Source of the DNA: Sclerodactyla briareus
Taxonomy: Eukaryota; Echinodermata; Holothuroidea; Dendrochirotida; Sclerodactylidae
Length of the DNA stretch: 64,000 nt
Direction: 5' to 3'
Assembly: GCA_026419785.1 (NCBI GenBank)
Contig: JAODTK010002477.1
Span: forward strand, 62,001 to 126,000
Under the pieces are notes generated by a model that was given only the letters and a program-made list of their open reading frames with translations, had not been told where the DNA came from and made no database searches. Shown in pieces: positions 9,993 through 60,068 of this stretch. Both the position numbers and the translations under genes were made by a program. Position 1 is the stretch's first letter. The number at the start of each line of letters is the position of its first letter.

Positions 9993-10235
9993 TTACTGGC
10001 TTCCCAAGGAATACAATAATAACAAATAAATCTTTTTACATTTTCTGTTCTTCTGTACATGTTCCACTCTCTCTCTCTCTCTCTCACTGTTGCGGTTCTG
10101 TAGTGTGTATCTCCGTGCTTTCAACTTCTCCACAAGACTGCATAACTTGAGTGCCGGCCCCAGCTTCAGGCCCATGTACTTCATCATCATGTCCCCCGCT
10201 TTGTTTCAAACAGAGGAATGCTCGACCATCAATTT
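9993..10235 (-). CDS. Scm: Scm-like last exon: C-terminal half of SAM domain
   Basis: The exon follows acceptor CACTCGTCCCAG (AG at 10,237-10,236) and opens with EIDGRAFL. It continues with MMMKYMGLKLGPALKLC and VEKLKARRY, an almost exact match to the SAM domain C-terminal half of SCMH1/SCML2/Scm (EIDGKALLLLKS.., MMKYMGLKLGPALKLC). One extra G in a GGGGG run, just before the MMMKYMG segment, splits the frame; four Gs would restore it. In vertebrate homologues the protein ends within a few residues of the SAM domain. Here the frame runs about 37 further residues, partly through a (GA)n microsatellite giving SERERER, to a stop at 9,993. That tail may be an artefact of microsatellite length. Confidence 0.95.
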
Positions 10236-11715
10236 CTGGGACGAGTGATGGAGAGTTATTTGATTATAATAATTACCACACATTGTCACAAACTGTTTTG
10301 CTATACAGTTCCCCGAGGGGGTCACTCGAAATCATACCATGGTTGTTCAATAGAGTTGCAATGAGGCCCAAGTCATGTATTTTCATGACAAGTTTTTGTG
10401 GGGCGATCAACCTCTGATAGGCTGGTTGTTCTATTTTCCCCGTTTGGCCTCAAAAGACCCAAGAACAAAGACTTGTGGAACCAGTCAGATCGATTACGGT
10501 TCCTGGCCTAATGTCTTGACCTGACCATGATTTCAAAGAGGTTTGCCTGAACATGTTGAACGGCATAAAACAATGAGGACATACAAGTGGTGGTGGTTGA
10601 TGGAACAAGTGTGCCCATGGTACCCACTCAATAGAATCATGTTCAATACTGCAATCTGAAATCTTCAGAAAATCATAGAGATTATGACATCGAGATAGGT
10701 TAAAGACAAGTCCCATTCAAAAATATTTCAAATGCCTATGATTGTGCATTGAAAATCATGCCCATCAAACTTGTTTCATGTCCATAGCATGTTCATTTAT
10801 AAAGTTACAAATTTTTCAAGAATTATTAATTTATTTATATCACCGCTAGTTGGCAATTTTGCCATTGGGCAACAATTTGATGACGACATATCTAACCACT
10901 TGGTGAAGAAAATGTTAAGAATTATGTCCTTTCTCTTGGTAGATATGACATCATAAAAGGTTGCCAGTTTGCCCAAATCAGCAAATATATGAAATTTGGG
11001 AGGAAGCCATATCTTCCCCACTGAACATGCTATAAACCTGGACAAATTGATATTTTAATGATTTTTTATTCTCTTTAACATTTAACACACAAGAATAGTA
11101 ATAAATTTGGCTGAATTTTCGCTTCATATTTAGAAACTGTCCACAAAAAATTGGCGCATGTTATTTACAAAGATGTCTCCAGACATCATTGTTTATTTAT
11201 GTGAGAGGCATGGCACGGGGAGGCACATGCCCCTAAATAACTGCCCATGCTGCCCACCAGTAAAAATACTCGCAATGTAGTCATCTCAAGAGAAGGGTTG
11301 ACAAATATTCGTATGCTCTGCCCCAACAGCCAGAAGGCCACCCTGGTCCCTCAATGCCAACCTACTTGGCTATGCTGATGAATGTTGACAGGTCAGAGTA
11401 CCTATTCAAAGCCCAGCTTTTTCCAATAATTCACTCCTTGAAACTAATCGAGAAATATAAATCATCAAATAACAAAGGCACACCACACCCTCTCTGTTGT
11501 ATATAGAGCCATTGCGATGAAATTTGAGGCATATTTTTCCTGGCCACTGACACTAGCATGGCCCATCCACCTGGGGATATGCACAAATGGGTTTCGAAGT
11601 GTTCAGAGATACGCCAGCATGAAAAATATCAAAAATCTCTGCCGTAAAACCTGTTTCTTACGGCGCAGAAAGAACGACCTTAGAAAACCTCAGGGTAAAG
11701 TAAACACATGTTTAC
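10236..11715. other. Intron between the two SAM exons
   Basis: Minus-strand intron of about 1.5 kb. It holds no recognised element and is moderately AT-rich, with an unremarkable A/T-rich patch at 10,790-11,110. The AAAAG|GTAAAC donor at its 5' end lies at 11,716/11,715. Confidence 0.6.
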
Positions 11716-11860
11716 CTTTTCCTGAACAGCTCAGAGTGCTGTGCATTCGCTGGATCCTGGTCGATGACGAACCTGATCACTCTCCTCGATCTCCACCTTG
11801 AGGTTCACTGCTCCGCAGAGGGTGCCTTCTGGTTCCGGTTCTCCGTGGTTGAGCTAGCCG
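11716..11860 (-). CDS. Scm: Scm-like exon: N-terminal half of SAM domain
   Basis: The acceptor TTATCCCACAG precedes 11,860 and the donor AAAAG|GTAAAC follows 11,716. The exon carries a polar linker (TENRNQKAPSAEQ), then a tryptophan. It then reads VIRFVIDQDPANAQHSELF, which aligns with the first SAM helices of SCMH1/SCML2 (WSVDEVIQFM.., ..LADLFR). The linker frame joins the preceding 15,450-15,523 exon in phase. A TGA and a shifted W-to-VIRF segment are best explained by two or three one-base indels. The junction to the next exon needs one A fewer in AAAA, giving ELFRK-EIDG. Together the two exons make a complete SAM domain. Confidence 0.85.
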
Positions 11861-12150
11861 CTGTGGGATAACACTTGAATGATTGGTCTTCCAAGAAACC
11901 AGTGTTTGGGGATCCAAATACTAGCAAAGAAAGTCAGATGGAGAGGGTAGTATTCTTATGGTACTCGCGGACAAAGAAATCAAAACCGTCCGGAACTAGG
12001 ATCTAGACCTTCAACCAACCACGACCCCTTTGAACATCTTTGGGAATGGTTGGCTCTCTATACTTAGGGGGTCCGGATGCAGAATGTGCATTACCCCTAT
12101 ACATCTATATCCACAGACTTCTCGGGATTGCATAGACCTCCCTGCGAACC

Positions 12151-12275
12151 AGTGTTGGAGGACTTGAGGCCGGCCTCGCCTCAAGTCATTTTCTTGCCCC
12201 TCGGCTCGGAGGCTACGCCCTCAGCCTCGTAGCTTCGGCCTCTGGTTTTGGGCGGAGGCTGGGTCGAGCGGGAAC
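12151..12275 (+). mobile_element. hAT-like end, CAGTGTTG start with GCCTCG-rich subterminal DNA
   Basis: Begins CAGTGTTGGAGGACTTGAGG and continues with GGCCGGCCTCG, CCCTCGGCTCGGAGG and GCCTCGTAGC. CAGTGTT starts with many short GC-rich subterminal words are common in hAT MITEs. The same vocabulary occurs at 14,040-14,825 and 20,583-20,732. No second end or target duplication is assigned. Confidence 0.4.
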
Positions 12276-14815: not shown

Positions 14816-15449
14816 AACACTGCTGCGAACCCCTCTGTTGTCACAGACCCCTAATTAATGTTCAGGGACCCTAAGGGACCTGTGGACCCTAGAGTGGATA
14901 ACACTGCTATAGAAGGCCCAGCTGGATACTGTCACACTATCATCCACTGCCAACCTTCACCAGGACACTGCATAAGGCACCCCTCTGTGACAGCCACACA
15001 TAATCTGTCATCAGTGCAGGAAGTGCATAGCCGCACTCTTTATCCATGGACACTTTTTAAAATGAGGGAACATATGAACATATGCCAACCCATAATGTCA
15101 CTGTGACACTGCAAGTCTATTCATAGCCAGAGAATAGTCTTCGGTTGTTAACTTCCTCCCTGGGGAGGGGGGGACATTCAATGAATCCATGGTGGATGGA
15201 AGAAGAGGCATGCGGTCATATGATATTCTGCTTGCCCATTTTCCATTATTCTGGTTCACATTGGCAGGGCAACCGAAATCGGCAACCACCCCTAGTTTAG
15301 TTGAATTATAACTGTAATTACCAAATAAAAAGGCACCACACTGAAAAGTGTGAAACACTGATCAGCCTGACTGAAATAAAGATGATACAGTTTGCTGAAA
15401 AAAAAGCTTAGTAGGAGAATCAGAAAAAATTGGAGATGATCTCACTCAC

Positions 15450-24902: not shown

Positions 24903-25131
24903 CTTTACGCCAGCGGCTGCAGTATGCCCTGTCTTGGCCACACCACCCACTGGTAAGATATCCCGGCTGGAGAATCACACCATTATCCAAGGGCCCGCCC
25001 CATCCATCAACGATAGATCGTCCGGTCCTCCACCTTTGTGACCGTCCCGGGACAATGATGAATGCATTCTTCCTGCCACCCCCTCCAGCTTCTCCCCACT
25101 TGAAGATTTCCTCTCTGGGGGTTGGCGGCTC
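24903..25131 (-). CDS. Scm: Scm-like exon: second MBT repeat
   Basis: The acceptor TTCATTTTCCAG (before 25,131) and the donor GTAAAG|GTATGT (after 24,903) bound 229 bases. The exon opens EPPTPRE then IFK.G, joining the preceding exon in phase (FKQ-EPPTP, compare FHKEPPSP in SCMH1). Further on come RKNAFII, TVTKVEDRTIY, DGWGGPLDN, a DS..DILPVG-type segment and a TGHxLQP-like end. This matches the MBT2 pattern KVGMKLE, KNP.FICPATI, FDGW.GAFDYWC, DSRDIFPVGWC, TGD.LQPPG. At least six one-base indels are needed. The strand, order and spacing of the motifs leave little doubt about the domain. MBT repeats form a methyl-lysine pocket; damage in this copy prevents judging cage residues. Confidence 0.88.
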
Positions 25132-26299
25132 CTGGAAAATGAACAAATGAAATCCGGGAGTTGGTCAATAATATCAGTGGGCCGAGTGAATTGGAACGCC
25201 GCCTATTCCGTCCATTCAAATCTCTGCATATGTTGCAAATATTATTGCCTGACAAGAGCCTCCATAATTTATTTTGAGTCAGCCACAGCATTGAGTGGAT
25301 AGGAATCAAGTGAACTCTGTTTAGGGACTTTTGCCATGTCACAATTTATTTCAAACCATTCCGGTCATTCCAGTCGCCAGTATCTTGGAAAACTTCAATT
25401 CTGGCGGGAAAATATCTTTTCCTCTTGATGAATGCAAGGGAACAATTGTATTCATTACCTGCTCCCTCCGTTAACATCAACATCTCAACAATGGGGAAGA
25501 ATCAGCAGAAATGCAAAATGCCATAAATGGCAAATTTTGCTCCCCTGAATTTCACAGACAACCATAAAACCTACACACATACAACCACCACACACACCCA
25601 CACCTAACCTGATGGCACCTCTATTGGCCCCTCATTGCTGAACCCCCCCCATCATGGTACCCCCCCAGCGTGTACCCCTCAGTGAAAAGTTAAACTTAAA
25701 CAAAATGTTACCATAGCACTGTATATCTCATCCGGCCCTTTGGTACTGATGAGATAATTAGAGTGTGTCCACACACAGGATGAATAGTTACACTTTTTTC
25801 AGCTTGATCTCATCCACTCACTTATAGACATCGCTTACAACTGCATGTCTAGATGGGGACATGACAAAGCATAATCAACTAGACATTGGCTGGTGGGTAA
25901 ACCATCAACGTTTATATCCCCCCTCTCCAGCAATCAGTGAGTGAGGTCTTTTTATTTGAATGTGCCAAAAGTCTGCAAAGAGAAATTTGTTGAAGGCAAA
26001 ATCATGGAAAATGGGGTAAAATAAGGGTTGGCCCAAAAATCACCCAGATGAGCTACGCCCAAGAGCAGGTGGCAAGCCCGACTTCCTAATGGGTGCCAAG
26101 TGACCAATGGAAAAGCTACCAGTCTATCAACTGATCCCGGTATACTTACGCGAAGCAATACACTTCTACAATTTCATTGTAATAAATGGTCCCAGCAGTG
26201 ATTGTAGCTACACTGTGATCCTGTGATGTAGAACCCCAAAACCGCATTCCAGAGTCAGAGGTTGAATATGCCACGGTATGTGGACCCAAAACTGTGTGT

Positions 26300-26430
26300 G
26301 GAGCATGGCTGGAGGACTCGAGTCCTGACTCGAGTCGCTATTTCCAAGGACTGGGCTCGAAGGTTCAATACTCTGGAACTCGCCACAAAGGATCGGGGAC
26401 TGGTCCGACCTCATGGTTCGAGTCCTCTGT
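26300..26430. mobile_element. hAT-like fragment with CTCGAGTC palindromes
   Basis: Contains the perfect 12-bp palindrome GGACTCGAGTCC at 26,314-26,325, immediately followed by TGACTCGAGTC, and GGTTCGAGTCC at the far side. This ACTCGAGTC vocabulary is common in subterminal parts of hAT MITEs. Termini are not resolved. Confidence 0.3.
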
Positions 26431-27340
26431 TTTTTTCGAATTCATACAGACCTTGAATTGACGATTGTACAAGACAACCAAAATACAAACACACAATGCC
26501 GTGCTAAAAAAGTAGCCTGAGCTTTACCCATACTTCCGCGGCGATGTCTAAATCAGGAGGGAAATTACATATTTTCACATGCTTGCATGTTTATGGTCAC
26601 ATGTAATCAATTAAGAGATAACAAATACATGCAAGCGAAAAGCTATACATTGTGTCGAAAGGTTTACTAGTACAATACTACAAAAATTTGTTATAATCAA
26701 ATGAGACAAATATAAATCTATTATTTTTTGGAACGAATCAAAAAATATGATGCACTACTAAAAGACATTAAAAATATTCTGGGTTTGATAATTATACATG
26801 ACACGAACATTAGCACAACCTGGGAATACTCCAATCTTGTCGATTTACGATCTGTTTTGAGGAAGATCTATAGCCTATAGCTTTCATTTCACCTGTGCCA
26901 GTGTATATATGTAAGGATACTTTCTTAACCATGTCTTTCATAATTTGATGTTGTACATGGCTAGTGGGTTCTCCACTTTTCCATGTAGTGAATAGATCAT
27001 GAGGAAGTTACCGGCCCAGAGGTTAATTCTCTGTATTTATTTAGGCGCAATTGCTATTTGTCCTGCAAACATTTGCAGTAACATTTCCGATATTACTTGA
27101 ATCGATAGCCGAGCGTCAACTCGTTTTATTCATGTGGCAGTAGATAATGTATGTGAATTAAAATAATGATTCACAGGAAGACGGGTGGGTTCAATGAGGA
27201 AAGAAGATTCCATGAAAAGAGGAGTGAATGTGAAAGAGCAGTTTCATCCTTTATTATTTATAGAGTGTGTATCTCCGTTATCTCTATTATTTATAGAGTG
27301 TGTATCTCCGACGCCTATTCAACTGTCATAAACTGAATTG

Positions 27341-28622
27341 GGTTTCCTCAGGGATCTATTGCTGGTTCCACCATTTTCACATCCTACTTGAAACCCATCA
27401 CTAGCATTTTCCAATTATTACAAGGTGGATTATCACGTTTATTCTGACAATAATCAGCTTTAAGTCAGCTTTGATCCTAAAATCCCCAGTCGAGTAGAGG
27501 ACAGTGCGCATGCTCGGCTGACTGAGTTGTATCGCTACTGCTAGACACTGGATGCTCAGGACTCAATGGACATAACAAACTGCGTTCCTCACGATTCGTC
27601 CCGGAATCAGGTTTGTGCCTTTGACAGCATTACTTTGGGGATAGGTGGGTCAGAGGTCCATCCAAATCTGGGACTCATTTCTGATTCCCGGATGAGTATG
27701 GACTCGCAAGTATCTGACATTTGACGCATGTTAAATTTTCACCTACGCAACATATTTCTAGGATCCGTAGGATCATTGACGATATACTTGTGCCCATGCA
27801 GTGCATTCTCTCCCGTTTAGATTATTGCAACTCTCTCTCGGCGGCTATTCGTAGAATATTCAACGTCGGTCATGAATTGCAGACCAGGCCGCTCGCCTTA
27901 TTCACCAGTCGACCACCGACAAACACTTCTCTTTTGCGGATTTGCACTGGCTTCCGATTCAGCAGAGAGTTGAACATAAAACGTTAATGCATGTTTTCAC
28001 ATGTGTTAGGATACAGCGACAACTCTCCTTCGTGAATGGTGAATATTCATGAACCCAGCCGGGCTGCGTCTGAGATCATCAGTGACCGAACTTCGTGTGT
28101 CTGTTCCTAAGTACCCAGCGGGCGTTGGTGATGGGGCGTTTTCCGTGATCGGCCCTCGTCTTTGGAACAATCTTCCACTGCATCTTCGCCAAGCCACTTC
28201 CTCAATTACTTTTAAGAGAGGGTTTTCCGTGATCGGCCCTCGTCTTTGGAACAATCTTCCACTGCATCTTCGCCAAGCCACTTCCTCATTACGTTTAAGA
28301 GAGGTTGAACCCATCTGTGCCCGGGTTCTTAAGTTTGTATCTTGTTTTGTTTTTTAGGCATCAGTTTTGATTCTGTGGTTTTTACTGATCTTTTTTATAT
28401 TTTTATAAGATTTATATTTTTTTCGACATTCTTAGGTATTTTAGCTAATGCTGTCTTATTGATTTTTGTCATTTTTGTGTTGTAATATATGATTTTATTG
28501 TAACTCCCTTCGATCTTCGGGGGAAGGGCATTATAAAACAGCACAATAAATAAATACATAAATAAATCAATAAATAAATAAATAAATAAAAATAAATGAA
28601 TAAATAAATAAATAAATATCAT
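27341..28622 (+). pseudogene. 5'-truncated CR1/L2/Rex-type LINE, decayed reverse transcriptase
   Basis: The plus-strand fragment starts within the reverse transcriptase: a PQGSIAGSTIF segment at about 27,347 equals the conserved G(V)PQGS motif. Further frames give FDPKIPSRVEDS, LGLISDSRMSMD (C-terminal GV.ID..L pattern), MQCILSRLDYCNSL and FSVIGPRLWNNLPLHLRQA, all typical of the ORF2 end of CR1/L2/Rex-like elements. Stops and frame changes show it is dead. An exact-type 84-base tandem duplication repeats the PRLWNNLPLHLRQA segment at about 28,139-28,306. The 3' end is an (AATA)n tail at 28,543-28,620. It lies antisense in an intron of the Scm-like gene. Confidence 0.88.
28543..28620 (+). repeat. 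(AATA)n microsatellite tail of the LINE
   Basis: Runs of AATAAATAAATA with small interruptions. CR1/L2-type elements end in short-unit microsatellites instead of poly-A, so this marks the element's 3' end. Confidence 0.85.
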
Positions 28623-28944
28623 TTCCAATGCTAAATAAGTGCATGGCAATCAACATTTTTACAAATTTATTTTATTTATAATTTTTTTTTTAATTTGAAT
28701 CGGCTTATGACCAACCATCCTACAAGACAACTTCCATTTGTGTTGATCCCGAAGTATAGTCATTATTGCCATTGCATCTCGTTTTTGGCACCTGTCATGA
28801 CCAGCTCAATCCTCTCTTTTTTTATGGTTCGTACATTGTTATTTATAGTAGCCGCTGCATTCAAAGCATTGGCCTGGTAGCAATCAAGCACTACAGCGGT
28901 TGTTAAGTCATGCCTTAGTTTGAGAAATAGTACAGGTCAAATTG

Positions 28945-29055
28945 CATAAATGACTCGCAGTCTGACACTGTACTCGGACCGCCATTGACTCGGACTCTCA
29001 CTCAGATATCTGATTACTCGGACTCGGATGGAGGGACTCCGCCTCAAGCACTGGT
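28945..29055 (-). mobile_element. hAT-like end, CAGTGCTTGAGGC start
   Basis: Read on the minus strand from about 29,053, it begins CAGTGCTTGAGGCGGAGTCC and continues with CCGAGTCCGAGTAATCAG and GAGTCCGAGTCAATGG. The repeated GAGTCC words and CAGTG start match the other hAT-like fragments in the window. A CAGTGTCAGACTGCGAG segment at the far side may be internal. Confidence 0.4.
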
Positions 29056-29285
29056 GTGGAGGGGCGGGTTGGGATGCGGTAATGCTGTATAGTGCATGGC
29101 CCTCCACAATGAAATTAGGTAAAAAAAATAACACACAAAACGTCTGTGAACATAGGGCTCCCTGACCTGTTTTCTGCAAATTTGCACCCAATTGGTTACG
29201 ATCAGTTTCCCCAGCCTTATATAACACAGGACCGTTTGCAGCATCTGCAATGAGAATCTACCTAGTGCAAATTTCTACTTCTCAC

Positions 29286-29370
29286 CTGTTTGAATCCACT
29301 GATGGAGCACACTAGCATTGTCAGTGTGCCTGCAGGAACTGAGGCCATGAGGAGGCATTCATCCTGAAAC
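29286..29370 (-). CDS. Scm: Scm-like exon: end of MBT1 and inter-MBT segment
   Basis: The acceptor CTTTTGCCTGTAG (before 29,370) and the donor AAACAG|GTGAGAAG (after 29,286) bound 85 bases. With one base from the previous exon it reads G-FRMNASSWPQFL, nearly identical to GFRMNASSWP of Scm and GFRLNASSWPMFL of SCMH1. After apparent one-base losses in AA and GG runs it continues TLTNASVAP and ends GFKQ, joining EPPTP in the next exon. It encodes the C-terminal arm of MBT1. The splice phase at both ends agrees with the neighbours, making this one of the firmest exons. Confidence 0.92.
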
Positions 29371-32221
29371 CTACAGGCAAAAGAAAAGGTAGTAGATGAA
29401 ATGTCAATACATTCATGGCATCACAAGATATGACCACTATCCTGCACTCAGGTACTGTACAGTACTGCCCACTATGTTGTGACAGAGACAGAGAGAAAAT
29501 GATACTCTCATTCGATTGTCAATAGCCCAGCACAGCTGTTCAAATCAGGGAACAGCACAGAATATGACTGCATTCAGCAAAAAGTGGCTCGCGTTTCAGA
29601 TATCTGCCAAGCAGAGGATCGGACTATTAAAGAACACAGCAAGAATGCAGACCTGGAAACTGCATGTTTTTGTCAGCTGCGAATCTTTCCCCAGATACAC
29701 AGTATGAGGCAATGCCTCTTCGGTTAACCCCTTAATGGAGGTGAGGGTAATCACACGAAAAGGACAACTCAGCCAAATTGCTGCCCATCTATATTCTAAC
29801 AAGCGGCATCCCCCACATGAAGCTGCTTACCTCTCCCACATAGCAGGGTCAAAATGATTTGTTCATCCCGGAACATACTTTGACAAATTGCCGCGCTGAA
29901 GTTATCCCCAAGTGGGGGGGGGGGGCATGGATTATGAGGCGACTAGTTGCATTAGAACATGCTAATGCCTTTTCACTATACTGTGATTGCCAGAGAAGAT
30001 GTTAAATGGTATCAGTGAAAGCTAGTATAGTAAATCTGCCCCTATATGGAGAATTATTGAGGAGGAAAATTAATACCATAGTATAAAAGCTTTTGGACAC
30101 TGCTCAATGGGTTTCCAAAGTAAGTTTGAAGCAAATCGAACAACCAAACGGATCGTAGAATACTGGATATTTGAAAGAATGCTGCGAAGCCCACCCACTC
30201 GTCTAAGTATTATCAATTTAGTAACAACAACAACAATACTTGCATATGAGCAATCAACAAACCCGGTTAGGGAAGCAATATAACTATTAACGAGCTCTTC
30301 CCCTTCTTGGCTACAAAGAAATTTCCAGAGGAACTATTTGTAGCCCGCAGGTATGCTGCTCAATGGTACTGTAAGTCACATTGTTGGAGCTATTTTTCAA
30401 AATCAATTAGGGGCGATTGCACACCTAGCCTTCCTGCTGCCATGTTGAATACTCTAACCACTCCACCATACTATCCTCCACCTGCCAAATGAGGATCACC
30501 AACCATCGGCCAGGATAATTCAAATTGAGGGAATCGGACAGTTTAGAGACTTCCTTTAGTCGGAGATTGTGGAAAGTGAATCTCCCAAAATTACATACCT
30601 ACTTTCATGTGACATTTTATTGATCACGCATAACGAATTTGACGTCTTGGAAGGAAAATTATGGTTTTGTCCCTCATTAAGGTGGCAATTGAGACTGAAA
30701 GGAATTTCTGTGAGAATGACAGTCTGATACTTCAAAATTGCACACTGCATTGTCAAAGGGGAACAATAAACCATAATTTATTGAGCCATGAACTTATGGC
30801 ATTTGCTGTGTAAACATATATCCCCGTTTTACAGGGGCTTTTAAGGCATTATCGCTCAGAAAATACTGCCTCCTAAGAAATCTGGCAAATCTTATTCGAT
30901 TGAATAACCAGGCCTTGAATGGCTACCAATGACTCCAAAATCACTGCCCTCTATCTTTGTCGGGACCGAATGTAACCAACAGCCACCAAAGGTTTGTTTG
31001 GGATATTGCTAACAAGAAAAGTTCCATCAGACACAATCAACTACAGAACAAAACCGTAATATCCCATGAAGTAGTTTCTGTTGCAGGGTTATATACCAAT
31101 CTTCGATAAGAATGGGTCTGTTGAATCAATTCTGGACCCTTCTTTAGGACGTGGTTTCCCCCTTATTTTCTCATCATTCCCCCTTTAGCCTTCGCATTGA
31201 AGAGCCGTGTTCCCATTTTGAAATACAGATTAGGCAACTCCTAACCGGCATGATTATATGTGTATGGCTGTAACAATATAACAAATATCGGGTCGGTAAA
31301 CGAGTCACAATAAGAACGAGTAGACTTAAAATCCAAGTCAGTTAACATGAAAAAATATGCCCCATTTACCCGCTCTCCCCCGCTTTGCGTAACATTCCTA
31401 GCACCGCACGCGGGGAACATCCCAGGGAAGACAAGGAGGAGAACCCCAAGGGTAACGGGGGAGGGGGGCTCGGCTAGAGAAAGCACTGCAAACAGCTCCA
31501 GCCCTACTGAACTTAACACAATAGGAACCAACACAACTGCGTGTGTTAGGCTACGGGGGAAGTAAAGGACAACCCTATCGTGCTGGGAACAGCTCAGGCT
31601 AAAATATGCGACTTACGACAAAACGGAGATCTGAGCGGGAAGAGCAAAATCCAATCCAAAATCACGCAAAACCGACCTAGGACAAACTTATCCGAATAGG
31701 TGAAGTCGGAAGAAAAATGATTCCTGCAAGATGAAAGCAGATGGGTGTTTTGGGGACAAATGAAAAATCAATGAAATTCTCAGCCAGATGCTCTGAACTT
31801 AAACGTTCCACTGGCAAAATAAGAAGGACATGGGTTGCTAGCCCGGACTTCTGTAAAAGATTGCCAGAGGTTCCATGGCACCGGTTGGTGCATATTGCAT
31901 GTGGGGTGAGTTGAGAGGCTCAGACTAGCGAGAGCAAGGGCATTTAATGTTCATGCCTCTGAGCCTCACGTTGCCTAACGACCCATTCCCCTAAATAGGG
32001 ATTTCCCATGGTGTATCATATAATATTGGCCACCCCAGCGTGGAAGGCTGTCTAAAATATGGTGCAGAATGCCTTTCGGCTAAAGGCTACACCGTAGCCA
32101 TTTTGTAACATAACTTTGTATGGTCTACTCTTTCTCTACAATTATACCAAAATGCTGCACCTGTAAATTAAATAATGTTAGCCACTAACGGTGGAGGATG
32201 AAGAGGTCTTACCACACCTAC
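29371..32221. other. Intron within the MBT1 region
   Basis: Minus-strand intron of 2.9 kb. A 9-base G run lies near 29,917. GTACTGTACAGTAC palindromic sequence occurs near 29,453. The remainder shows no repeat family or gene I can name; ORFs at 31,241-31,534 and nearby are low-complexity chance frames. Confidence 0.45.
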
Positions 32222-32517
<296 letters not shown>

Positions 32518-32649
32518 TTATCAATGCATCAAGACAAGTGTATTATAGGGAATGACTCCCATAGAAGGGGCAATCTAGGCCAAAATTTTTGAGATTTAAA
32601 ATTCAGCCAGGAAACAACCCAAGCTTCATTGGAAAATACACAACTTCAG

Positions 32650-33155
32650 CAAGAGTGAAACTAGGAAGTGATACCCAAATTTCATTTTGAATGGGCAATT
32701 TTCTTCTATTGAACACCCCTGAAATGTACACCACAGTAGTACTGTACAGTACTAAGCACCAAAATACATGTAACTCCTGCAGTATCGAGCAGAGTTTAGT
32801 AGTAGTGAATCGTCAAAGACTCTTTGAAGAGTGCCGTGGACGCGTCTCAAGCGATGCGAGATGACTGACGAGGTGGACCTGGTTGGTGAGCGCGTATTTG
32901 CAGACGATTCCGGGAAAGAGCATGGTGTTTTGCTTCTTCAATGGTGAGCCCAGTTATTGGCCAACCGAAATTTTGAAGTGGCCTAGTTTGCCCAGAAAAT
33001 GAACAAAGTTCAGCTAGAGTGAAACTAGGAAGTGATACCCAAATTTCATTTTGAATGGGCAATTTTCTTCTATTGAACACCCCTGAAATGTACACACAGT
33101 AGTAATGTACATGCCACAAAATACACGTAACTCCTGCAGTATCGAGCAAAAATTA
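32650..33155 (+). repeat. Near-identical direct repeats, ~363-base offset, flanking a GC-richer insert
   Basis: GAGTGAAACTAGGAAGTGAT and the next ~130 bases occur at about 32,653-32,800 and 33,017-33,155 with few differences. Both include ATTTTGAATGGGCAATTTTC and TAACTCCTGCAGTATCGAGC. The first copy carries the perfect 18-bp palindrome TAGTACTGTACAGTACTA at 32,737-32,754. Between the copies lies GC-richer DNA whose minus frame reads GLTIEEAKHHALSRNR. This recalls, without proving, the C-terminal end of some LINE polyproteins. Confidence 0.75.
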
Positions 33156-33289
33156 TGTGCAACCAAAAATGGAAGTGGCCTGTTTTACCCATGGTCCGGA
33201 GTAGAGTGCATAGGATCAAAATGACCTGTATAGATGACACTACTTCCTTTCGATGGCACCCCCCAAATTACCAGAAAGTCAAAAGGCTA

Positions 33290-35190
33290 GTGATTCCTTG
33301 CCTCATTTCTAAAAGCATTTGACCTGACACATTAGGGATGATGTACTCAACACACATACAAAGTATGAGCTTCATCCACCCAGGTATGGTCGAAATAAAG
33401 ACTGAAATTGCTCAAAATAACACATTGTCACAAATTTGACCTAAGATGAACTTTGACCTAATCCCAAAACATAGATTTCGAGATTTTGTGTACTCATCAG
33501 GGGAACACACACTGATTTTTTTTCATATGATTTTTTCCTCATAAAGAAGCTACACACTAAATTTCAGTCTGATTGGACCAAGCATTCTGGGATTATCATG
33601 TTTACAAGAATTTCAAACTATGTCCTCTGATAACCTCTGAGGGTTCATGTACTCATTATGGGTCGAGTTTATTGTGTTTGTACAAGCTGAAATATCAGTT
33701 TTTCAATAATTTCCAATTTTCCCCCAAAAATGACCCCAATCTCAACCAAAAACGATAGGGTTCCTGTACTCTTTATGAGAAAAGCTACACACTAAATTTC
33801 AGTCTGATTGACCAATCATTCTAGGATATCATGTTTACAGAGAATTCAGACTTTTGTCCTCTATGACGCTTGACTGACCCAAAACAAGGGGAATCATGTA
33901 CTCATTATGGGAACACAGACATACCAAGTATGAGCTGTATCAACTCGGACCCTGATCAGTTATCATGTTTACAAAGCTGAAATTGGCCAAATCTTCAGTT
34001 ATTCACACTAATGTTCCAATTTTATCCAAATAATGCCCCGCCCCGGTCCCTCTACCAAAAAACAATAGGTCCTTTGTCTTCTCATAGAATCACACAAAAT
34101 TTCAACTTACTGGACTAAGTGTTTTAGACTTATCATGTTCACAGGCTTGTCAGACTTTGACCTTTGGTGACCTCAGAAGACCTTCTGACCTGACCCCAAA
34201 ACAATAGGGATCATGTACTATTATGGGGAAAGGCACCTACCACGTTATGAGCTTTCTCCACGCAGGTGGGGTCGAGGTAGTTTGTTTACAAAGCCAACCT
34301 TGGCCGAGAACATCATTCCCGACCATTTCCTCATTTCTCCCAAAAAGGTCCCCCAAACAAACCCAAAAATGTAAGGGTTCTTGTAACTCCCCATAAGAAT
34401 GCTCCATACCAAATTTCTCCTTGATCGGACCAACTGTTCTGGCCTACGTGTTTACGAGGATTTCCTTTCTTCTCATCATGGGAAGCGCACATACCAAGTA
34501 TTATCTTCCATTCCATCCAGGTGGGGTATGATTTAGTGTGGTTTCCCAGAAGCCAAAATTTTAATCTAAAATTCAATTTTTGGACTATTTCCTACTTTCT
34601 TCTTTCTCCTCTTCCCGCAAAATGACCCCTCAATCATCAACACCCAAACAATTAGGCTCTTTGTATCCCCCCATAGGAAGCTACACACTAAACTCCAGCT
34701 TGAATCGGACCAACTGTTTGGACTTAAAGTGTTTACACAAGGATTTTAGATTTTTACCTCTGTTTACCTCTGACCTTACCTAACCCCAAAACAGAAGGGC
34801 TCATGTCTCATCATGGGGAATACACATCCCAATAATGAGCTCAATCCATCAGGTGGGGGTTGATTTCGTGTGGTTTTACAAGCCAACCAAAATTCATTTT
34901 TGAACTATCCTAATTGGTCCTTCCTCCCCAAAAATGACCCCCCCCAATCAACACCCAAAACAACAGGGTTCTTGCCCTCCCCATAAGAATCTCCACATCA
35001 CATTTTTCCTCTTCATCGGACCAACTGTTTTTTTTTCTGGAATTATCGTGTTTACAAGCTTCCAGACTGTGACTTCTGGCCGGACCTAGATGACCGTTGA
35101 CCGAACCCCTGAGACTCAATCAATCCAGGTGGGGTCGAGTTATGGTGGTTCCAAGCAAAGCGGCCACACCATACACACCCACCACACTTG
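33290..35190 (+). repeat. Dispersed repeat family B, array of ~6-7 diverged units of ~290 bases
   Basis: Each unit carries the ordered blocks GACC..ACCCCAAAACA.AGG, ATGTACTCATTATGGG.A, ACATACCAAGTATGAGCT, CATCCAGGTGGGGTCGA, TTTACAAGCCAAAATT and CAAATTTCAG.CTGATTGGAC. Unit starts fall near 33,460, 33,880, 34,190, 34,470, 34,790 and 35,090. Solo or partial copies occur at 21,285, 45,950-46,150, 47,745-48,020, 59,200-59,720 and 60,115-60,290. Non-coding, with a strong ordered internal structure. Confidence 0.8.
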
Positions 35191-36668
35191 TCATGGTGGA
35201 AAACGAGTAGTGTGTTTTTACCTACCCAAAAGAGGAAACGCACTCATTTCCATATTCCGAATGCGTAATCCTCCGAATAAGCCAGGGGATACGACTTTAC
35301 TGGTCAACAAGAGGTATGTATACTAACAAGCTAACCGCAGAAAACAAGGTCTGTTGAATATATTTAATTGATAAAAAAAAGTGTGGTAAGATTCTACCGC
35401 ATAACCGAGGAAGTTGCTCAGATTGATAACAGCACAATTCCGCGAGAGGGGGGGATGGGTGCCCGAGACCGCCCTCAATGCCCTATTCTAAACCGAGGTA
35501 TTCCTCGTTTGTCGGGGGTACCTCGATTGACAAGTGTTTAAAAACCTAGTTTACCTCGGTTTCAACGGTTACAAACGCACCTACACACATACGGCATGAC
35601 TACATAGATTTCTTTGACTTTGTAGGAATTAAAGATTAGAGTGATTGAACAATGACCTTGAACTGTTCCACGAAAACAAATGTTTATTTAGGCTGCTGTG
35701 ATTGCATCGGTTGTTTTGTGCAACAAGTTACAGTACGAGCTTCAGCCAGTAATTGTTTCACATCCGGTTCAATGACAGCGCCTGTTGGAGCCACTCTACT
35801 GCAGGCCCTTGATCGGACACAATTCAGAAATAGAATTTATCTTCCGGTTTTTCAATTCTTGTTTGTGCTGGGGCCACTCTGTAGGTGGATCTGAGCCAAT
35901 GACTGCGAAATTATTTTATTGATGTGTGTTAACATAATCCAAACAAAAGTGCATGAAAAAATGTCAGAGATAAGGTCCAAACATCGTCCAAAGTATGTTT
36001 GTGGTTCCACACAAGGGGCCTAGCAGAGGTTTCATTCCCTGGTGACAAATATTACAAAATAATTGGTACATGGAAATTGTACGTTACTTTTTTTTTTACT
36101 CACCGGATTGTATAGCTATTTCAAGCTGATTCCCGATCAGAAAGTGTTTTTCAAGTATTGAAGCTTTTCATTCTCGCTTGATCCACCACGCAATTTGCAT
36201 ATTGCTAAACTATATCGGTCGGTTACAGTAATAGGCCCTGAAACCATTGTTACTCTTCAGAATCAAGCAATACGGAATTATTCAGCACATGCAACATACA
36301 GTCAAACACACCCGATGTGCGATTCTCTTAAATCTTCTAAAAATTATGAACGATACGATCATCAAAAAATTGATATGTTCACTACCGCTGCCTTGGATGT
36401 CTCCTTCCTAATAGGTTCAATTCATTCATATAAGCATAACAATCTGTCCAACTACAACACTAGGACGAGCAACGGATTTGCATCCATCATTTTACGATCA
36501 TTCAGGGTCAACTCAGTCTCAAGTACATGTCCACCTGAATAGGGAATTAAATTGCCTCAATCTCAAGCTCTGTTCAAATGTACAGATCTTCCCAAAAAAT
36601 ATTATTCAATTTCAGGAACATTGCTACTAATAATAGTGTCGTGGAGATGTGGGTACAGCGGTAGGGTG

Positions 36669-36718
36669 GATGGGGGGGGGGGAGAGGGGAGGGGGAGGGG
36701 GGGAGGGGAGTGGAGTGG
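36669..36718 (+). repeat. G-rich tract, potential G-quadruplex
   Basis: Successive runs of 4-10 G separated by single A residues, followed by GAGTGGAGTGGAAT. Meets the four-run rule many times over. Intronic to the minus-strand gene, so the C-rich strand is the transcript. Confidence 0.7.
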
Positions 36719-38829
36719 AATGCGTAAATAAATGTGATAATTGATTATTGTTTTCCAACGCAACATGCTTTTGGATATACTTAGTTTCGGGGAGTGTATT
36801 GCTTCTTAAAGCCCACCAGGCTTTCTAGTGCACTCCCTTCCACATTTTTATTCTATCAGAATTATCTCTGTTTTCTGTAAACTTCAGTTGGCAAAACAAT
36901 AAATGAAACGAAAAACCAAGTATTGAAAGAGGGACAGGCGGTTGGGGTCCTGAAACTTGGTACGACTTCATTACCCTCTGGCGTTATACCGATAACTTGG
37001 TCTTAAAGACTCGAGTTAATATTTCATTGCCATTGTAGGGCTTACTTCCTTCACCTGAAACCCATATGGGAACGAAGTGAAAATTAACAGCCCTGAAAAC
37101 ACAGTAACAATACAAATATGGCCAATAAACTGGTAGTGGTCACGCTTTCGCAACAATAGCACACGGGATATCAGCGGGTGTGAGGGAATGGGACCGTGAC
37201 GGTTTATGGAAAGAAACCTTCTCAGTGCGTTAACAGCTTTATTTCTATTAGGTTATCGATAGAAATACGCTCACAATTGATCACTGGTTTTGCGTTTTAG
37301 TCGAAGTAGTGTTAGATAATCACGTCATTAGCCAGTCCATTATGGGCGAGTCAGTGACACGATACATCATCTAAAAGAGGCTGCCAGTCCCCCAAGAGTC
37401 TGGTAGTTAAGGCCATGCCCACACTGCAGCTCTGAGTTTGTAATACAAAATGACGTCTCTTGACAACACAGCTGAGAAAGAGAACATGTGACCCCTTTGT
37501 GTTTGACTCGCCGTGCAGACTTATCTATCATACAAGGTAGCAACCCATGGTGCTGTAGATCAACACTCAAATAATGTTAATAATATTTCACTTCAGAATG
37601 TATCAACAAGGTGGCATTATGACTTACAGGAACTTTCATGTGAATGCTGTCTGATTCTTAGTTCCTTTGAACTATCCTCGATGTGGTCAACGATTGTTCC
37701 TGAGAAATTTAAAAAATAAAAAAAATAAAAAGATTATAAAAAACAAAAATTAATAAACAAGTCTTTTAAAAAGCCTGTGACAATTCCTTGGGCTCAAATA
37801 CACTGTTGGCCTTCTTATTAGATGGCCTTGTATCAAAGTCTTCAAGCGTTCTATGGTTAGAAAACAGGTCACACAGTATGATTATGTGCCGTATTGTATG
37901 GAATGAATATTAGGGTATGTTGGTTACATATTAAGCCGGCGCCAAAACATCAGCCGTGGCTGGCGAAACGTCCATGGATACAGTTTAGCTGAATGGGTAT
38001 TGTACTGAAATGGGTTGTTTGGCTAAAAACTGTAGAACGCAAGCAAAGGCCTTTGAACCTTGCATACAAAACTCACAAAGAAAGTTTGGGCCATATGCCC
38101 GTGGCCTGAAGCCTTTTTACTAGTCTCAAAAGAGGGACTGAATACTCCCAATGTAAACAACAATGTCTGTTATGTGGACGTGTGTGTAACCCACGGAACA
38201 CAGTCAGTCATTGAGGATTAAGCTGTACTGACTACTGTAGTTACTTTACAGTTCCTCATTTGCCCAACTTTAGTCTCCAAGGCGGCTAACATAGGATAAG
38301 TGAAAATAAATGAACATATTGATCGTCCGTCCCTCCAGCTATTTTGGAAATTTAGACATTCTGTATATTGTAAATTTCACTTTCAGAAAGAGGTTTTCAA
38401 GAGGTAAGGTGATTACCCCAGTGACCCCCTGGTTGCACGCTGGATGGTTTGCGATTAGTCATAATGCACACAAATACAAGGCCTCCATGTCTTGCTCCAG
38501 ATTTTGTATTAGCATTGAAAGGGAACAGTTAATAACCAGGAAAATCTCAAAATTCATAGAATAGGTTGACCATGTCACTGATGGAGTATAGTTTATGGAA
38601 ATTATGACTGAAATTGTATCATGACTTCCGCCCAAATGAGACACAATATTCCACTTTCATTGACCTTTTTCATCAAATATATATCCCGGACCAATGGTGG
38701 ACCACACTCTACACATTTCAACCAACTTGAACATATTGCATGAAGAACGAATTATACAGGCATGAAATAACCCCCAGTGCATGACTCAAGTCAATGTAAA
38801 AAAAAAAAAAAAGTGAGGACGAAAGGTAG

Positions 38830-39283
38830 ACCATACGCTCAAGCTCAATTAAAAATCTCAACAAACTTTGAAATTTGGAGAACTATGCCAAAATAGACTA
38901 ACTGAAAATGCCAGTCTCATTTCGAATGTTGGTAGGTAAGGATAAGTCATATCCACGAAGTTTCATGGGAATCGGCAAACTTTGCAGTACGCATAATGTT
39001 ATGCAAATTAGACAGTCTGTTGAATGAACTCCACCCGTGACCCTGAATCCATGAGAAAACAAATTTGGAACTGAAAGTAAACCATATCCACAAGGTTCAT
39101 TAAAATCCAACCACACTTCATGATTTTGCAATACATTATACGCCAATGGACCCATGAATGACTCCATTGACCTGAATATGCTGTTAAGTAATGTCAAGAG
39201 ACTGGATTTAGACCATATCTCACGTTCACAGTTTCAGGGAAAATCTTACAACCTTGATATTTAGCATAAATTATGCAAATTGA

Positions 39284-39333
<50 letters not shown>

Positions 39334-39665
39334 AACCAACAAAAAAACAAAAAAAAAACAAATCGTAGTTAGCATATTTTACGCTGTAACTAATCAGTTC
39401 ATCGACCTCATTATCCTTCACCTATTGAAACCAAGTCACCAAGCAAGTTACGGTTCATCTGTAATTTTGCTAATAAGCTTAAACAATGAATATTATAAAA
39501 ATAGGCCAATCACTCTCCTTATAGCGAGTTTGCGCCCAAGAACTAGTCAGATCGTGTTCACCAAAACCCTGATACTACATTACAAAATTTCGTCAAACTT
39601 GGCCTCACCGTTCAGAGAAATCGCTAAAAAAAAAGTTGTCAGTTCAGGCGAAACAAAAAAGGCAT
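38830..39665 (+). repeat. Dispersed repeat family A, copy 2, with 48-base A tract
   Basis: Carries repeated sub-blocks of about 130 bases (AAACTTTG.A.TT with TGCATAATGTTATGCAAATT) followed by the family A 3' part (ACGGTTCATCTGTAATTTTG, AAGCTTAAACAATGAAT, CAGATCGTGTTCACC). A run of 48 A at 39,285-39,332 interrupts it directly after ATGCAAATTGAC, followed by AC-rich A runs to 39,360. Confidence 0.7.
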
Positions 39666-41029
39666 GATTTCATATTGTAATGTATACCCATGTGTACTTG
39701 GATGGATTGGGTAGTGTTACCACAGTAGTCAGGGATTGGGCCTAGTTGAGTAGATCAGATCCAATTGCAGATGTCATCACAAAAATCACTGTTGTTACAA
39801 ACATCTAACCTACGTAAACCCACTAAGTAATCCCAACCCCCAACCCTAATAACAAATCTCAACAGCCTCCCTCTTGGCCCAAGTTGTCTCCCTGACCTAT
39901 CCAATGGAGTGAATTGCAATACATGTACACCAGTTATAACACTGTAAACAGTTGGTACATGCCCACAGGGATAACGCTACCCCATGCCATACCATTTACT
40001 GCTTCCATACCCATAGCTAAGGGACTGTCGCCGAAAGGAGCAAATCTTCACGGCAACATTTTTTTAGTTGCCATAGTGAATGTTCTTTCCAGGCAAAATG
40101 TTATTTTGTGTGCATGAATAAGACAACAAAGACTGGATAATTTACAATGGCTCTATTAATTACCACAAAAGTGAAGCCGAGCGGTAGAGCCTAAGCAGTA
40201 GGCCTAAACTTGCTATGATTTGGGTACAGGACCAACACTTAGCCTAGATCAGAAAAGTGAATAATCTGAAGGACACCTTGCCAATAACATGAATCAATCT
40301 TTGTGAAATGTGTTTGTATCAACCAATCTTACATGCCTGTTCATTGAATCTGATGATTTCAAATGTTTTCCGATTGCAGATTTTTTAACGCACATTATTT
40401 TACAGTGAATTTGGTCCATTCCACATGGTTAAAAATAGAATGTGACATGCCACAAGTTCTGCAGGATCCATGACTCATGTCCATTGTGAACAAAAATTAG
40501 GTTTTCATCATGTCCTGCAGGGTAACGATTTCTGACACAAACTTAATGTGTATGCAAAGATTGTGCTAAATATCGACGGTCAGATACCTCACCCCTCCAA
40601 ACATGGCGGATCAGATACGTAGTGTTCACCTCTAGTACACATCGATAGCTAGTATTAATGCTATACTGGCTAATAGGCCTAGGCGCTACATTCTGGGTAT
40701 AATGGATCAATGCCTACGAGCCCCTGTGCTTCAAGCCTTCGCTGACAAGACTAATGCTCCAAAAAACCGCGATTTCAAGTGTCTACGATCGCGAGAGAAG
40801 GATCAAGTTTTCATCTCTAAAAATATCCTCATGGATCAAGTCCCATATTCACTGCCTACTATGGAAAAGGCATATTACTAATGAATAGCCCTCTTAGGCC
40901 CTTCTGGGCCTACGCGATCGCTCGGCCCGTCCATGGAATTGGCAATTTCCAGTTGGGTTATGTCGCGTATGATATCTACAGTAACAACTAGATCAAGAGG
41001 TAATATCTCCGGAGTGAATTATGGGAGAA

Positions 41030-41600
41030 ATGAAGAGGACCCTGGGAAATATCAAATCATGTCAATTTTCCATAAACATTGAACCTTGAACTACCTCAGA
41101 TAACATGACAGGTAAATTTTGTGAACGTGCCATGGAGAGTCACTTTCCGAGAAAACATTAGAATGTAATTGGGAACAACTCCAAGCACTTCTTAGGAGAA
41201 AATGATTTTGTTAGTTGATTTCAACAAATTAGTCCCTCATTCCTCTTCACAGGACCCTTTGAATTTGACCTTGCACAAGGTCAAAGTTGTCTCAGGGGTA
41301 AATGAAAATTGTTTCCAAGTTTCCGGTCCACATCCATCAAAGTATGACAGTGAGGGGCCCATGATACTTCTTTTCATGTTACTATTTTAACTGTTTTAAC
41401 TCTAATGGCATTATATGACGTTCCATCAAACACATGTACAATCTGAAAAAGAAATATCCAAGAAAAATTCTGACTAGTTTCAAGACATCTGTGTGCTTTT
41501 GTAGGAGAAGATACATTTGGTCAAAGATAATTAGACCCAGACGACAGACAGACAGACAGACAGACAGACAGGACAGATAGATAGAAGATGATAGATAGTA
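41030..41600 (+). repeat. Family C-like repeat with GACA/GATA tail
   Basis: Contains TTTGACCTTGCACAAGGTCAAAG, a TAGGAGAAGATACATTTGGTC block also found near 47,411, and a (GACA)n then (GATA)n tract at 41,543-41,600. The terminal AGCTCAAACC hairpin seen in other family C copies is missing. Confidence 0.5.
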
Positions 41601-43439
41601 GAATAACTGAACCTATGACCTGAATTTGACTCTGTCGGTGGGCCATGTGGTTTTAAAGGCGAATCTGAATTGAATGTGCTTATTTAAGGAGTTACGGGCA
41701 AAAAACAATAGAAACTGGTTATTTTTGGATATGTGAAAGAGGCTTAGTGGGCTTTTGGAGGGAAACAACTCCCGCTTCGATCGGTTACTTTGGTAGTTAC
41801 AGGCGGTCAAAGTTCAATTTTCAAACTTTTCGCATAACATTGGAATGTGCATGGGAAGGAATATGCTTCTAGAGTGGATGCTTACAGGAGGTAACAATTT
41901 TATAAAAACCGCATGTCATTGAAGTCCTTGAAGGTTCACTTAGGAGTCAAAAACTGATTTAGTTATTTTCGGCAATAGCCCACAGGGGTGTGTTCATCAG
42001 AATGCCAAAATGCTCCTAGGGGGATGTATCACTGAAGAGAGTAAAAAAAATTATCATGAAAACTGTCATATAATTAAAGGTCATTTGAGGTCAACTTAGG
42101 GGTCAAAAAATGTTTTCTGTGCATAATCGGAGAATTGACGATCTGCAAGGATGGAGGTTCACCATTGTGATAAATTGTTGACTGCATGGGGTGTGACCTC
42201 TGACCGATTGAACCTCTGGCGGGGGTAATGTGGTTAAAGGTCGAATCTTGAATAAATGGCTTATTTAGGCGACGTGTCCGGGGCTTGTAGGGGTGCCCAT
42301 ACATAACAAGTGCATTATGGACTGCCCATTTACCTGTACACGTTGTCGCTTCACAAGTCTATAAATGTCTTCTTTCCACGAATATTGCTCGGTTTCAGTT
42401 CACAAATTCTGAATAAGGATGCGGGGATATATATCTAGTCTGGCGGTTCCCCGCACAACATTTATAGGTTGAATTAAAAATCATCTCTACCTGCTCCTCA
42501 GAAAGAATGCCACTGCGTCACATTGAAAGCTACTGCGTCAAAATCGCGTCATAGGACTTGTTATCATCACAGTGTGACCAAAGCCTTAGTCCGGAAAACC
42601 CATTGGGTTGGAGTTGAGACTGAAAGTATTACAAGGATCGAACTCGATAGTAGGTCAAAGATTTAATGGCTGCTGGATGTAGTAACATGGTCTGGCCTCT
42701 TATGATCATCACTTCATTTTTAGTCAGTGAAGTCACTGACCAAATGAGGTTGCATGGATTTTCCCTACAGTAATATTGGGTGTATAGTGCAGAAAATGGT
42801 GGGCAACACTTCTTTCTGCATTCTGTTGAAAAAAAGAGGGGCACTCGGTGCAATTTGGCGCTTTCTTTCCAGCAGAAAGTATGGCCATAAACCATGCCGG
42901 CATTTTGCATGTTCCCACGTTGTGATTGTTACATGGTGACCACGCTTCCATAGGGCATTAATTGGGCATGAGGAAATCCACATTGCAGTTGTTAGGTGAC
43001 TATAAATGGGGTCTTGTGATTCATATTACTATACCAGATCTACAAACGGGGACACCCAGTCTAGCTGGGATTTAAACAGGGTGCTGCAATATCTTTCAGA
43101 TAAAACCACCCAGTTTGAAAACGTTATAATTATTCAGTGCGGGGCTGAGACAGCAGGGAGACAGTCTGGGAGTATTGGACTCCCTAAATTCTAGATTTCT
43201 ACATGGTTCCACATTTTGTACTATACCAATTTAATGGACCCCCCAAAGGCGATCGCCCCCAGTGTTTACTTCTATCGTCACAGGCAAACATTACAAGGCA
43301 TTCATGTGTGCCTTAAAGATCGGTTTAGCATTTAACAGAAACAGCCTCCTTATCAGTGACCAATTTTAAATTGAAAAAGCAATATTGACAAAGTCTACTA
43401 TTAAAGAGTAAAGTTTTGTGGAAATGTGGCTGAAATTGC

Positions 43440-44110
43440 CTACATTAGACAAAATTTAGTTCAGAAAATCCGGCAAACTTTGGAAATTGACGCATAAATT
43501 ACGCAAACTAGACCACACGGAATGCCCTCCAGTGGACCCTGAATCAATTATAAAAAAAATTGGAAATCAAAGAAACCATACCCACCCCAAGTGTCATAAA
43601 AATCTCAAGTAAAACTAAGATTTCACATAAATTATTGCCAAATAGGGTACCATGAATGACTTCCAGTGACCCAATTCCTGTTCAATAGGGTTTGGGACTG
43701 AAAGTAGGACCCGATTCACCAAACTTCGTGAAAAATCCAAACTTAAGCGCTTCTCGACCTATATTCCACATCTATGTGCCAAAACAAGTCACCAGCACCT
43801 ACGGTTCATCAGTAATCGTCGAACAAGGCCTAAACAATAAATTACATTATAAAATGGCTAATTTACCTACTAATCTGTGGACTTTTGTGCCCAGAATCTA
43901 TACGATTGTGTTCACTCAACCCTGAGCTACCCTGAAATTAGGAAATTTTTGCCCCATGGCATCACAGTGCCAAGGATATCATGCTACGAGAAAGTGTGAC
44001 ACACAAACACCAACACAACACAGTTTGACACAAACACACACGCCATAAGGACCACTAAGTCTCCTCCTGAATTTTCTTCAGGAGAGACAAAAACCACCAT
44101 TTTGATGGCG
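43440..44110 (+). repeat. Dispersed repeat family A, copy 3
   Basis: Blocks match copies 1 and 2: AAACTTTGGAAATTGACGCATA, CCAGTGGACCCTGAATC, ACGGTTCATCAGTAATCG, CCTAAACAATAAATTACAT, GATTGTGTTCACTCAACCC and the CTCCTCCTGAATTTTCTTCA..GGAGAGACAAAAA end. Same orientation as the others. Confidence 0.65.
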
Positions 44111-45019
44111 GTTTTTTGTGTCATCCATCCTGGTAATCCCCTATTCAGTGTTTCAATTTATTTGTTTCAAAATAAATGTATAGAATGTGAAACAGTATTT
44201 CAATTTGAAAACAAACACTGCAACATTTCCAAATATTGGTTTTGGTGAGTGCTAACAAACTTGTAATTATCGGGTGTGGTCTTAACTGTAGCATAAGGGT
44301 GCAAAGTTGGCCAGCCCTCTTTCCCCTGGGCCTACACTTTACCGGGCCAAAAGTCCGCCAACTGGCCTTCATTTTCCCTGGCTAGAGCCCTGGAACTGTA
44401 TGCATGTCATGCATGACAAGTGCGCCAGATTCCCTGATCTGTCAGGGAGGCCAAAAAAAAAACAGTGTTGTGTGGCCTCGACCGCCCGTACGTCATTTCT
44501 CGACCGATGTGATGATTTTTTTTTTTCAATTTTTTTTTCAGTTCGTGTTGTACACGAACATTCACATTGACCATTATACAAAAGTTAATTATGTCAAAAA
44601 ACTTGCGAAGATGGACCAGCATAACCTGTACGTGGACATGAATCGAAAAGCAAAATCCCCCCCCTCCTCCTTGACACACGCACACATCATTGCGGGAGAT
44701 CGATTAGGCCGTCCCGTGTTCAGTGATTTATGTAGGAATAGCACATTTCGCTGGGGGCCCTTTGCCTCGCTGCATTCCCGCAGGCGCTTTGCGATATATA
44801 TTACAACCCACTCGGAAGTTCTCTTGCCCAGGAGGAATGTTGTAATATGCCTACTGTTGAGACTCAAATCACAACGCACGTTGCTACTGAACTGATCGCT
44901 GTGCGTAAAGCCTACAGTACTAATTTCTCTCTCACTACGGAAACAGTACAAAAAATAGCAAAAAAAAATTGCAGTCGACATTGCCACTCCAATAAGGTTT
45001 ACGTTTGGGATTGATTTGT

Positions 45020-45105
45020 TTACGCATGCGCGAGTGACGGAAGTATTGTTCAAGTTGTTCGCCCGTTGTTTTTTTTGCGATCGGAAGAGCTGGTGGGGGC
45101 ATGGC
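45020..45105 (+). promoter_or_regulatory. Promoter-like patch: NRF1-type palindrome plus ETS-type site
   Basis: CGCATGCGC at 45,023-45,031 matches the NRF1 core palindrome. GACGGAAGT at 45,036-45,044 resembles an ETS site and contains a TGACG CRE half-site with its 5' flank. An ATG in GGGGGCATGGC context lies at 45,101, opening a short frame (MAVKQRVSRHTF..) without known homology. CpGs are locally enriched. Such clusters are common in metazoan housekeeping promoters, but no transcript can be shown. It sits 680 bases downstream (minus sense) of the exon at 45,782, so it could be an internal or antisense promoter. Confidence 0.35.
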
Positions 45106-45781
45106 TGTGAAGCAGCGAGTGTCACGGCATACTTTTATCGTTTTCATTTTTAGTATACTTGATAATTCAGGTTTGATTGATGGAAACTGAATGTTCTACA
45201 CAGGCAGGTATAGATTTCCAGGGGGGATCCGTGGGCACACGGCGAAAGTTTGTAACAAAACACACCTGGCTAAGTACCAGTGCTAGGTTACATGACGACG
45301 GACGAACTAGTATGATTGGAATATGTGAAAATGAAAGTCAGCGTAGGTTTTGGTACACGCTAGGCAGCATATGCAAACAAGAATGAAAGTATTATTTTTC
45401 GGATCATGTTGCTTCCTGTGTGGTTGAGATAACATCGAAATTATAGATATGTCACCTCGAAATATAGGACATTGTGGGAGCAGGATTGATGTTGAAAGTG
45501 TGAAAGTTGCAGAAGAAGAAGAAAGAAGACAAACAATGGGCCATGGAGCGACATCAGTTCTGATGTCTTTACAGTTGCTGGGAGGGGGTACTGGAGGGTA
45601 TGTAAAAACAAAAATAAAAAAAATTTTAAAATCCGCCACGCCTCTGACTGTCATTTTCAGCCAACCCTCGAGGGCACCAAACAATTTTTGAGGTGGCCTA
45701 ATTGAGGAGAAGAAAGTAGAGAAGTTTCGATTATATTCTATTCCATACAGCTTCAATTAGCAGCAACCTGAGGAACTGGAC

Positions 45782-45854
45782 CTGTTTGAAACATTTTCTG
45801 TCTGGCGCAACCCGGCATTCTTGTCCTTGAGGTAGCCATCCCAGGAGAATGATG
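45782..45854 (-). CDS. Scm: Scm-like exon: segment leading into MBT1
   Basis: The acceptor CTTGTTTCCCTCAG precedes 45,854 and the donor ACAG|GTCCAG follows 45,782. The 73-base exon reads SFSWDGYLKDKNAG and, after one indel, APDRKCFKQ. This matches the family segment HFTWDKYLKET..APVHCFKQ of SCMH1 that immediately precedes MBT1. The final CAG joins NTEIPVNEF of the 32,222-32,457 exon in phase 0. The donor is weaker than the others in the gene. The exon begins in mid-codon, so at least one coding exon lies further upstream. Confidence 0.87.

Positions 45855-59979: not shown

Positions 59980-60068
<89 letters not shown>

Follow-up and report, generated by a model that had tools for sequence, protein, structure and literature searches.

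On its minus strand, the 64,000-nucleotide stretch analysed here (the window; positions 62001-126000 of the 195-kb contig C2048) carries what we take, with a probability of about 0.9, to be the normal Scm gene of the animal, a Polycomb gene of SCMH1/SCML2 type, its frame breaks being errors of the draft assembly. The identity of the gene, the order of its recognised parts and a density of frame breaks similar to that in histone H4 and beta-tubulin loci are seen directly in the assembled letters. An intron-rich Scm gene would have been recorded on one contig with dense insertion and deletion errors, and its frames are presumably intact in the living animal. Finding an Scm homologue in an animal is in itself expected.

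Identification of an Scm-type gene

A six-frame search located all six lettered motifs of the original prediction on the minus strand, each of them once and in the order given there, from 45846 down to 10140. The exons assigned to the gene are:

45782..45854, minus: Scm exon with the start of MBT1 (FSWDGYLK ... CFKQ); 1-2 frame breaks; AG before 45854 and GT after 45782
32222..32457, minus: Scm exon with the MBT1 core (... LLQPPL); frame broken; supported by Pfam MBT and PDB SCMH1
29286..29370, minus: Scm exon at the MBT1-MBT2 junction (GFRMNASSWPQFL ... FKQ); 2-4 frame breaks, depending on the setting
24909..25131, minus: Scm exon with MBT2 (EPPTP ... DGWGGPLD ... GWC ... LQP); 3' end provisional; 9 frameshifts in 79 residues
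20185..20395, minus: probable exon; covers the first half of SLED (GGPYLSTSKVKQIP ... SQAVFPLMK); start approximate; donor-like AAAG/GTGGGT at its end
11716..11801, minus: Scm exon; covers the first half of SAM (SPM); 5' limit provisional; from intron-aware alignment
9993..10235, minus: final Scm exon recognised; carries the Scm-type end of SAM (EIDGRAFL ... GDMMMKYMGLKLGPALKLCSLVEKLK); from motifs and alignment

In the last exon, the reading past about 10119 crosses a simple repeat of GA and should not be relied on.

The MBT1 core exon was compared with PDB chains by phmmer (piece 32445-32287). The top match was SCMH1 with 94.6 bits (E-value 7.8e-27; 65% identity over query residues 22-86), followed by SCML2 with 91.6-92.9 bits and Drosophila Scm with 82.4 bits. 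The other MBT proteins listed, L3MBTL included, scored at most 40.6 bits. With the Pfam MBT model this exon reached 38.3 bits against a cut-off of 22. At the opposite end of the gene, the SAM region carries MMMKYMGLKLGPALK, the same string as in the fly Scm chain listed, and two polyhomeotic-like chains listed with it differ. Taken alone, a 25-residue SAM piece scored 15.8 bits with Pfam SAM_1, under the cut-off of 23. The predicted assignment to the Scm/SCMH1 type is borne out by the PDB ranking of the MBT1 exon together with the MBT and SAM chain scores given below.

The assembly comprises 319,486,128 bases in 3171 contigs. In a genome search the DNA of the main MBT exon occurred once, and no second Scm-like exon set was found. 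The sole other MBT match listed, on contig C2921, scores as L3MBTL-type (three stretches together give 148.6 bits with L3MBTL chains; fly Scm gives 68.4 bits). Since this only other listed match is L3MBTL-like, there is no sign, within the assembled and scored sequence, that a second, intact Scm exists and would have let the window copy decay. The C2921 match itself (locus L001, 1501-1620, minus strand) belongs to another MBT gene, of which it covers 40 residues in an open frame.

Exon-intron structure

Exons were joined with a custom protein-to-DNA aligner that allows frameshifts, accepts only GT-AG introns and applies an intron penalty of 22. The MBT and SLED references were taken from database chains; the SAM reference combined SCML2 with fly Scm letters. 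A low intron penalty led to chaining of random pieces (222.0 on the plus strand; for SLED, 173.0 on the minus and 168.5 on the plus strand), and such runs were excluded from any statement of significance.

Running from 45849 to 24909 on the minus strand through both repeats, the MBT chain scored 496.2, compared with 102.0 on the plus strand and 88.7 and 105.7 in two shuffles, which is about five times the controls. The SAM chain, from 11801 to 10119 on the minus strand, scored 147.0 versus 52.0 on the plus strand and 64.5 and 50.5 in two shuffles. Two adjacent Scm-type MBT repeats are present by PDB match, intron-aware alignment and Pfam, and a C-terminal Scm-type SAM/SPM domain is present by the aligner score. 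The original prediction had named frameshift-tolerant protein alignment as one check; run here with introns allowed, it lifted the MBT and SAM chains over the controls and left the SLED chain level with them.

The aligner placed three introns in the MBT region, at 45781..32458 (phase 0; 13.3 kb), 32221..29371 (phase 1) and 29285..25132 (phase 0), and one between the SAM exons at 11715..10236 (phase 1). Across the three MBT joins, 208 of 209 MBT columns are filled. Proper splice sites and matching phases had been predicted for most junctions; four GT-AG joins were recovered, but the aligner imposes GT-AG and phase by construction, and the intron ends are no independent proof. Support for the MBT intron ends comes from the chain score and the filled columns, not from the splice motifs themselves.

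A misassembly that joined separate loci, or a chimeric contig, could also place these motifs side by side. The chain has gaps, owing to the long introns and the unplaced linker exons, and joins could arise at repeats, the minisatellite at 14039-14804 among them. On the other hand, the MBT and SAM parts share strand and family order, the MBT joins lose almost no residue, the main exon is single in the genome, and SLED exceeds the cut-off nowhere. We give this explanation very little credence. The minisatellite, which lies within the Scm span, is G+C-rich, consists of about 36 copies of a 21-bp unit and gives rise to long but spurious ORFs in each of the six frames.

SLED domain and parts not recovered

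As a whole domain, SLED, also named DUF3588, showed no excess in the intron-aware run (86.0, with controls at 87.0, 83.5 and 78.5). With stricter settings and no introns, the first half of the domain gave the best score of the window at 20387-20217 on the minus strand (65.5-69.5); the rest of the window and two shuffles gave 55.0 at best. This site lies in family order and on the strand of the gene, and 14 of 56 residues are identical to SCML2. Permissive runs ranked an out-of-place match at 6714 (85.0) ahead of 20113 (76.5); only the stricter settings favour the in-order site. Judged by its letters and position, the stretch at about 20387-20217 is a plausible first half of SLED. In a genome-wide family search no SLED match exceeded the cut-off, and the window site was not listed.

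The second half of SLED, searched alone on both strands and in two shuffles, was absent from the top matches of the right interval. A candidate at 54055 on the minus strand was rejected, as it is out of order and ties with the plus strand (43.5 each, in one setting). In 114 kb of the contig, a probe for the RNA-binding region between MBT and SLED scored 45.5 versus 62.0 in one shuffle. Fly Scm carries two N-terminal FCS zinc fingers; a probe for such fingers scored 47.0 in the same 114 kb versus 45.5 in one shuffle. An ORF at 53561-53863 on the minus strand has a cysteine pattern resembling that of zinc fingers (CMQC ... YCSRKCQ; MYND or FCS by eye); it matched no Pfam family and was set aside. 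No start exon was identified for the Scm locus. The gene had been described as complete, which is not supported: the rest of SLED, the RNA-binding region, the zinc fingers, the start exon and the linkers were not found. The predicted one-strand order MBT-MBT-SLED-SAM stands for the two MBT repeats and SAM on the minus strand, with SLED represented by its plausible first half only.

Frame breaks in the Scm exons

The MBT exons contain 18 frameshifts in 208 residues in the intron-aware run and 16 in 221 residues (24.1 per kb) at the stricter setting, at which the SAM piece has one in 37 residues (9.0 per kb). Quoted rates refer to the stricter setting, since the permissive one runs on into noise. 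On clean, diverged Drosophila Scm coding DNA, the stricter setting called no false frameshift in any of five trials. Between the breaks, the conserved motifs are well kept. The aligner called no in-frame stop within the 208 MBT residues that it placed, which is weak evidence given that it can dodge stops via frameshifts.

Comparison with other genes of the assembly

Rates for conserved genes were obtained from pieces scoring down to 80, and those for Scm MBT from four pieces scoring down to 60. Given as frameshifts/residues and as frameshifts per kb, they are:

Histone H4, 4 loci: 9/103, 10/102, 9/100, 5/97; 29.1, 32.7, 30.0, 17.2 per kb
Beta-tubulin, 5 loci: 22/411, 6/164, 65/496, 58/502, 25/309; 17.8, 12.2, 43.7, 38.5, 27.0 per kb
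Actin, 7 partly overlapping loci: 1/176, 1/97, 0/83, 6/222, 11/206, 8/310, 4/137; 1.9, 3.4, 0, 9.0, 17.8, 8.6, 9.7 per kb

The Scm MBT rate lies inside the H4 and beta-tubulin range and above all seven actin loci. Left out of these rates were the loci L030 and L035 (alpha-tubulin-like by eye), actin L007 (overlapping L005), tubulin L034, L037 and L038, H4 L043 and L044 (overlapping others), and the unaligned HSP70 and chaperonin loci. The tubulin-like locus L030, outside the rate sample, showed 12.5 per kb at the permissive setting.

Stops give a similarly uneven picture. Six H4 matches were listed at four places, each 46-61% identical, and five of the six contain internal stops. Among the best candidates listed, stops occur in 23 of 33 beta-tubulin matches, in 6 of 14 HSP70 matches and in only 2 of 16 actin matches. 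Four matches were listed for the chaperonin family, one of them over the cut-off and three with stops. Compared as DNA, pairs of the four H4 copies show 71-93 substitutions and 13-16 gap events, in an alignment that is visibly poor and no proof of the error type. All four aligned H4 places, on contigs C1362 and C2362, are frame-broken, which suggests very poor base quality in these two short contigs. The Scm contig itself offered no host-gene yardstick: eight other ORFs of the window had no Pfam family, and among five flank ORFs scanned of 185 with at least 70 residues, one was a reverse transcriptase, two had matches below the cut-off only and two had none.

It is not credible that an animal should lack intact H4. 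Because H4 can hardly be lost and its copies are nevertheless broken here, we infer dense, unevenly spread insertion and deletion errors in the assembly. The gene had been called frame-broken; the breaks are real in the assembled letters, but they are most likely a property of the assembly, as other essential genes are similarly broken. Against an artefact, it should be weighed that error density is uneven and that the C2921 piece of another MBT gene is open, and the break rate alone is also compatible with true decay. If Scm had decayed at this locus to a true pseudogene, the breaks would be mutations; the many exon breaks and a per-kb rate over that of every actin locus fit such a history. 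It is nonetheless very unlikely, considering that H4 and beta-tubulin loci are broken at similar density and the H4 matches of this genome cannot all be dead, that the motifs are well kept between breaks, and that the search gave no further set of Scm-like exons, its one other listed MBT match being L3MBTL-type. Even less likely is the stronger form, in which the breaks are real and the animal kept an L3MBTL-type gene but no longer has a functional Scm, this locus being the one Scm-type gene that the assembly shows. Programmed frameshifting or RNA editing might read through the broken frames. Beyond the breaks themselves nothing points to such recoding, and the breaks are spread over many sites and are found in unrelated genes as well; its probability is very low.

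Assembly error in an ordinary Scm gene thus remains our preferred reading, and the value of the locus is mainly that of a warning: broken frames in this assembly say little about gene loss. Gene finders that rely on ORFs will here overlook even H4, tubulin and chaperonins or break them into pieces. For long-read assemblies, PMC12007338 documents frameshifts that give genes the look of pseudogenes. The pseudogene-like frameshifts are common to that case and ours; the genomes treated in that paper are small, and the sequencing platform may differ here.

Other features of the contig

Upstream of Scm on the same contig lies a reverse-transcriptase remnant (locus L047, 1578-2267, minus strand; Pfam RVT_1, 37.8 bits). 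The window further contains a diverged 60/126-bp tandem array at 6-960, two copies of an 84-bp unit at 28138-28304 and a TATC array at 59980-60068.

Comparison with known Scm and MBT proteins

L3MBTL-family proteins share MBT repeats with the window gene and differ in scoring no more than 40.6 bits with its MBT1 exon. Drosophila Scm (PDB 2r57, 1pk3) has FCS zinc fingers, which were not found for the window gene in the 114 kb probed; the two have in common the MBT1 exon match of 82.4 bits and the SAM string MMMKYMGLKLGPALK. For SCML2 and fly SCM, PMC4074974 describes binding of methylated lysine by MBT and linkage to PRC1 through SAM/SPM. By homology with these relatives, the two MBT repeats of the window gene would bind methylated histone tails, and its C-terminal SAM/SPM domain would join the protein to Polycomb repressive complex 1. 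SCML2 also has an RNA-binding region between MBT and SLED, according to the same paper. Compared with human SCMH1 (PDB 2p0k) and with SCML2 (2biv, 1oi1, 4edu, 2mem), the window gene differs in that its frames are broken in the assembly and that the second SLED half and the RNA-binding region were not found. Common to all three, in the same order, are two MBT repeats, SLED (in the window gene a plausible first half) and a SAM/SPM domain at the C-terminus.
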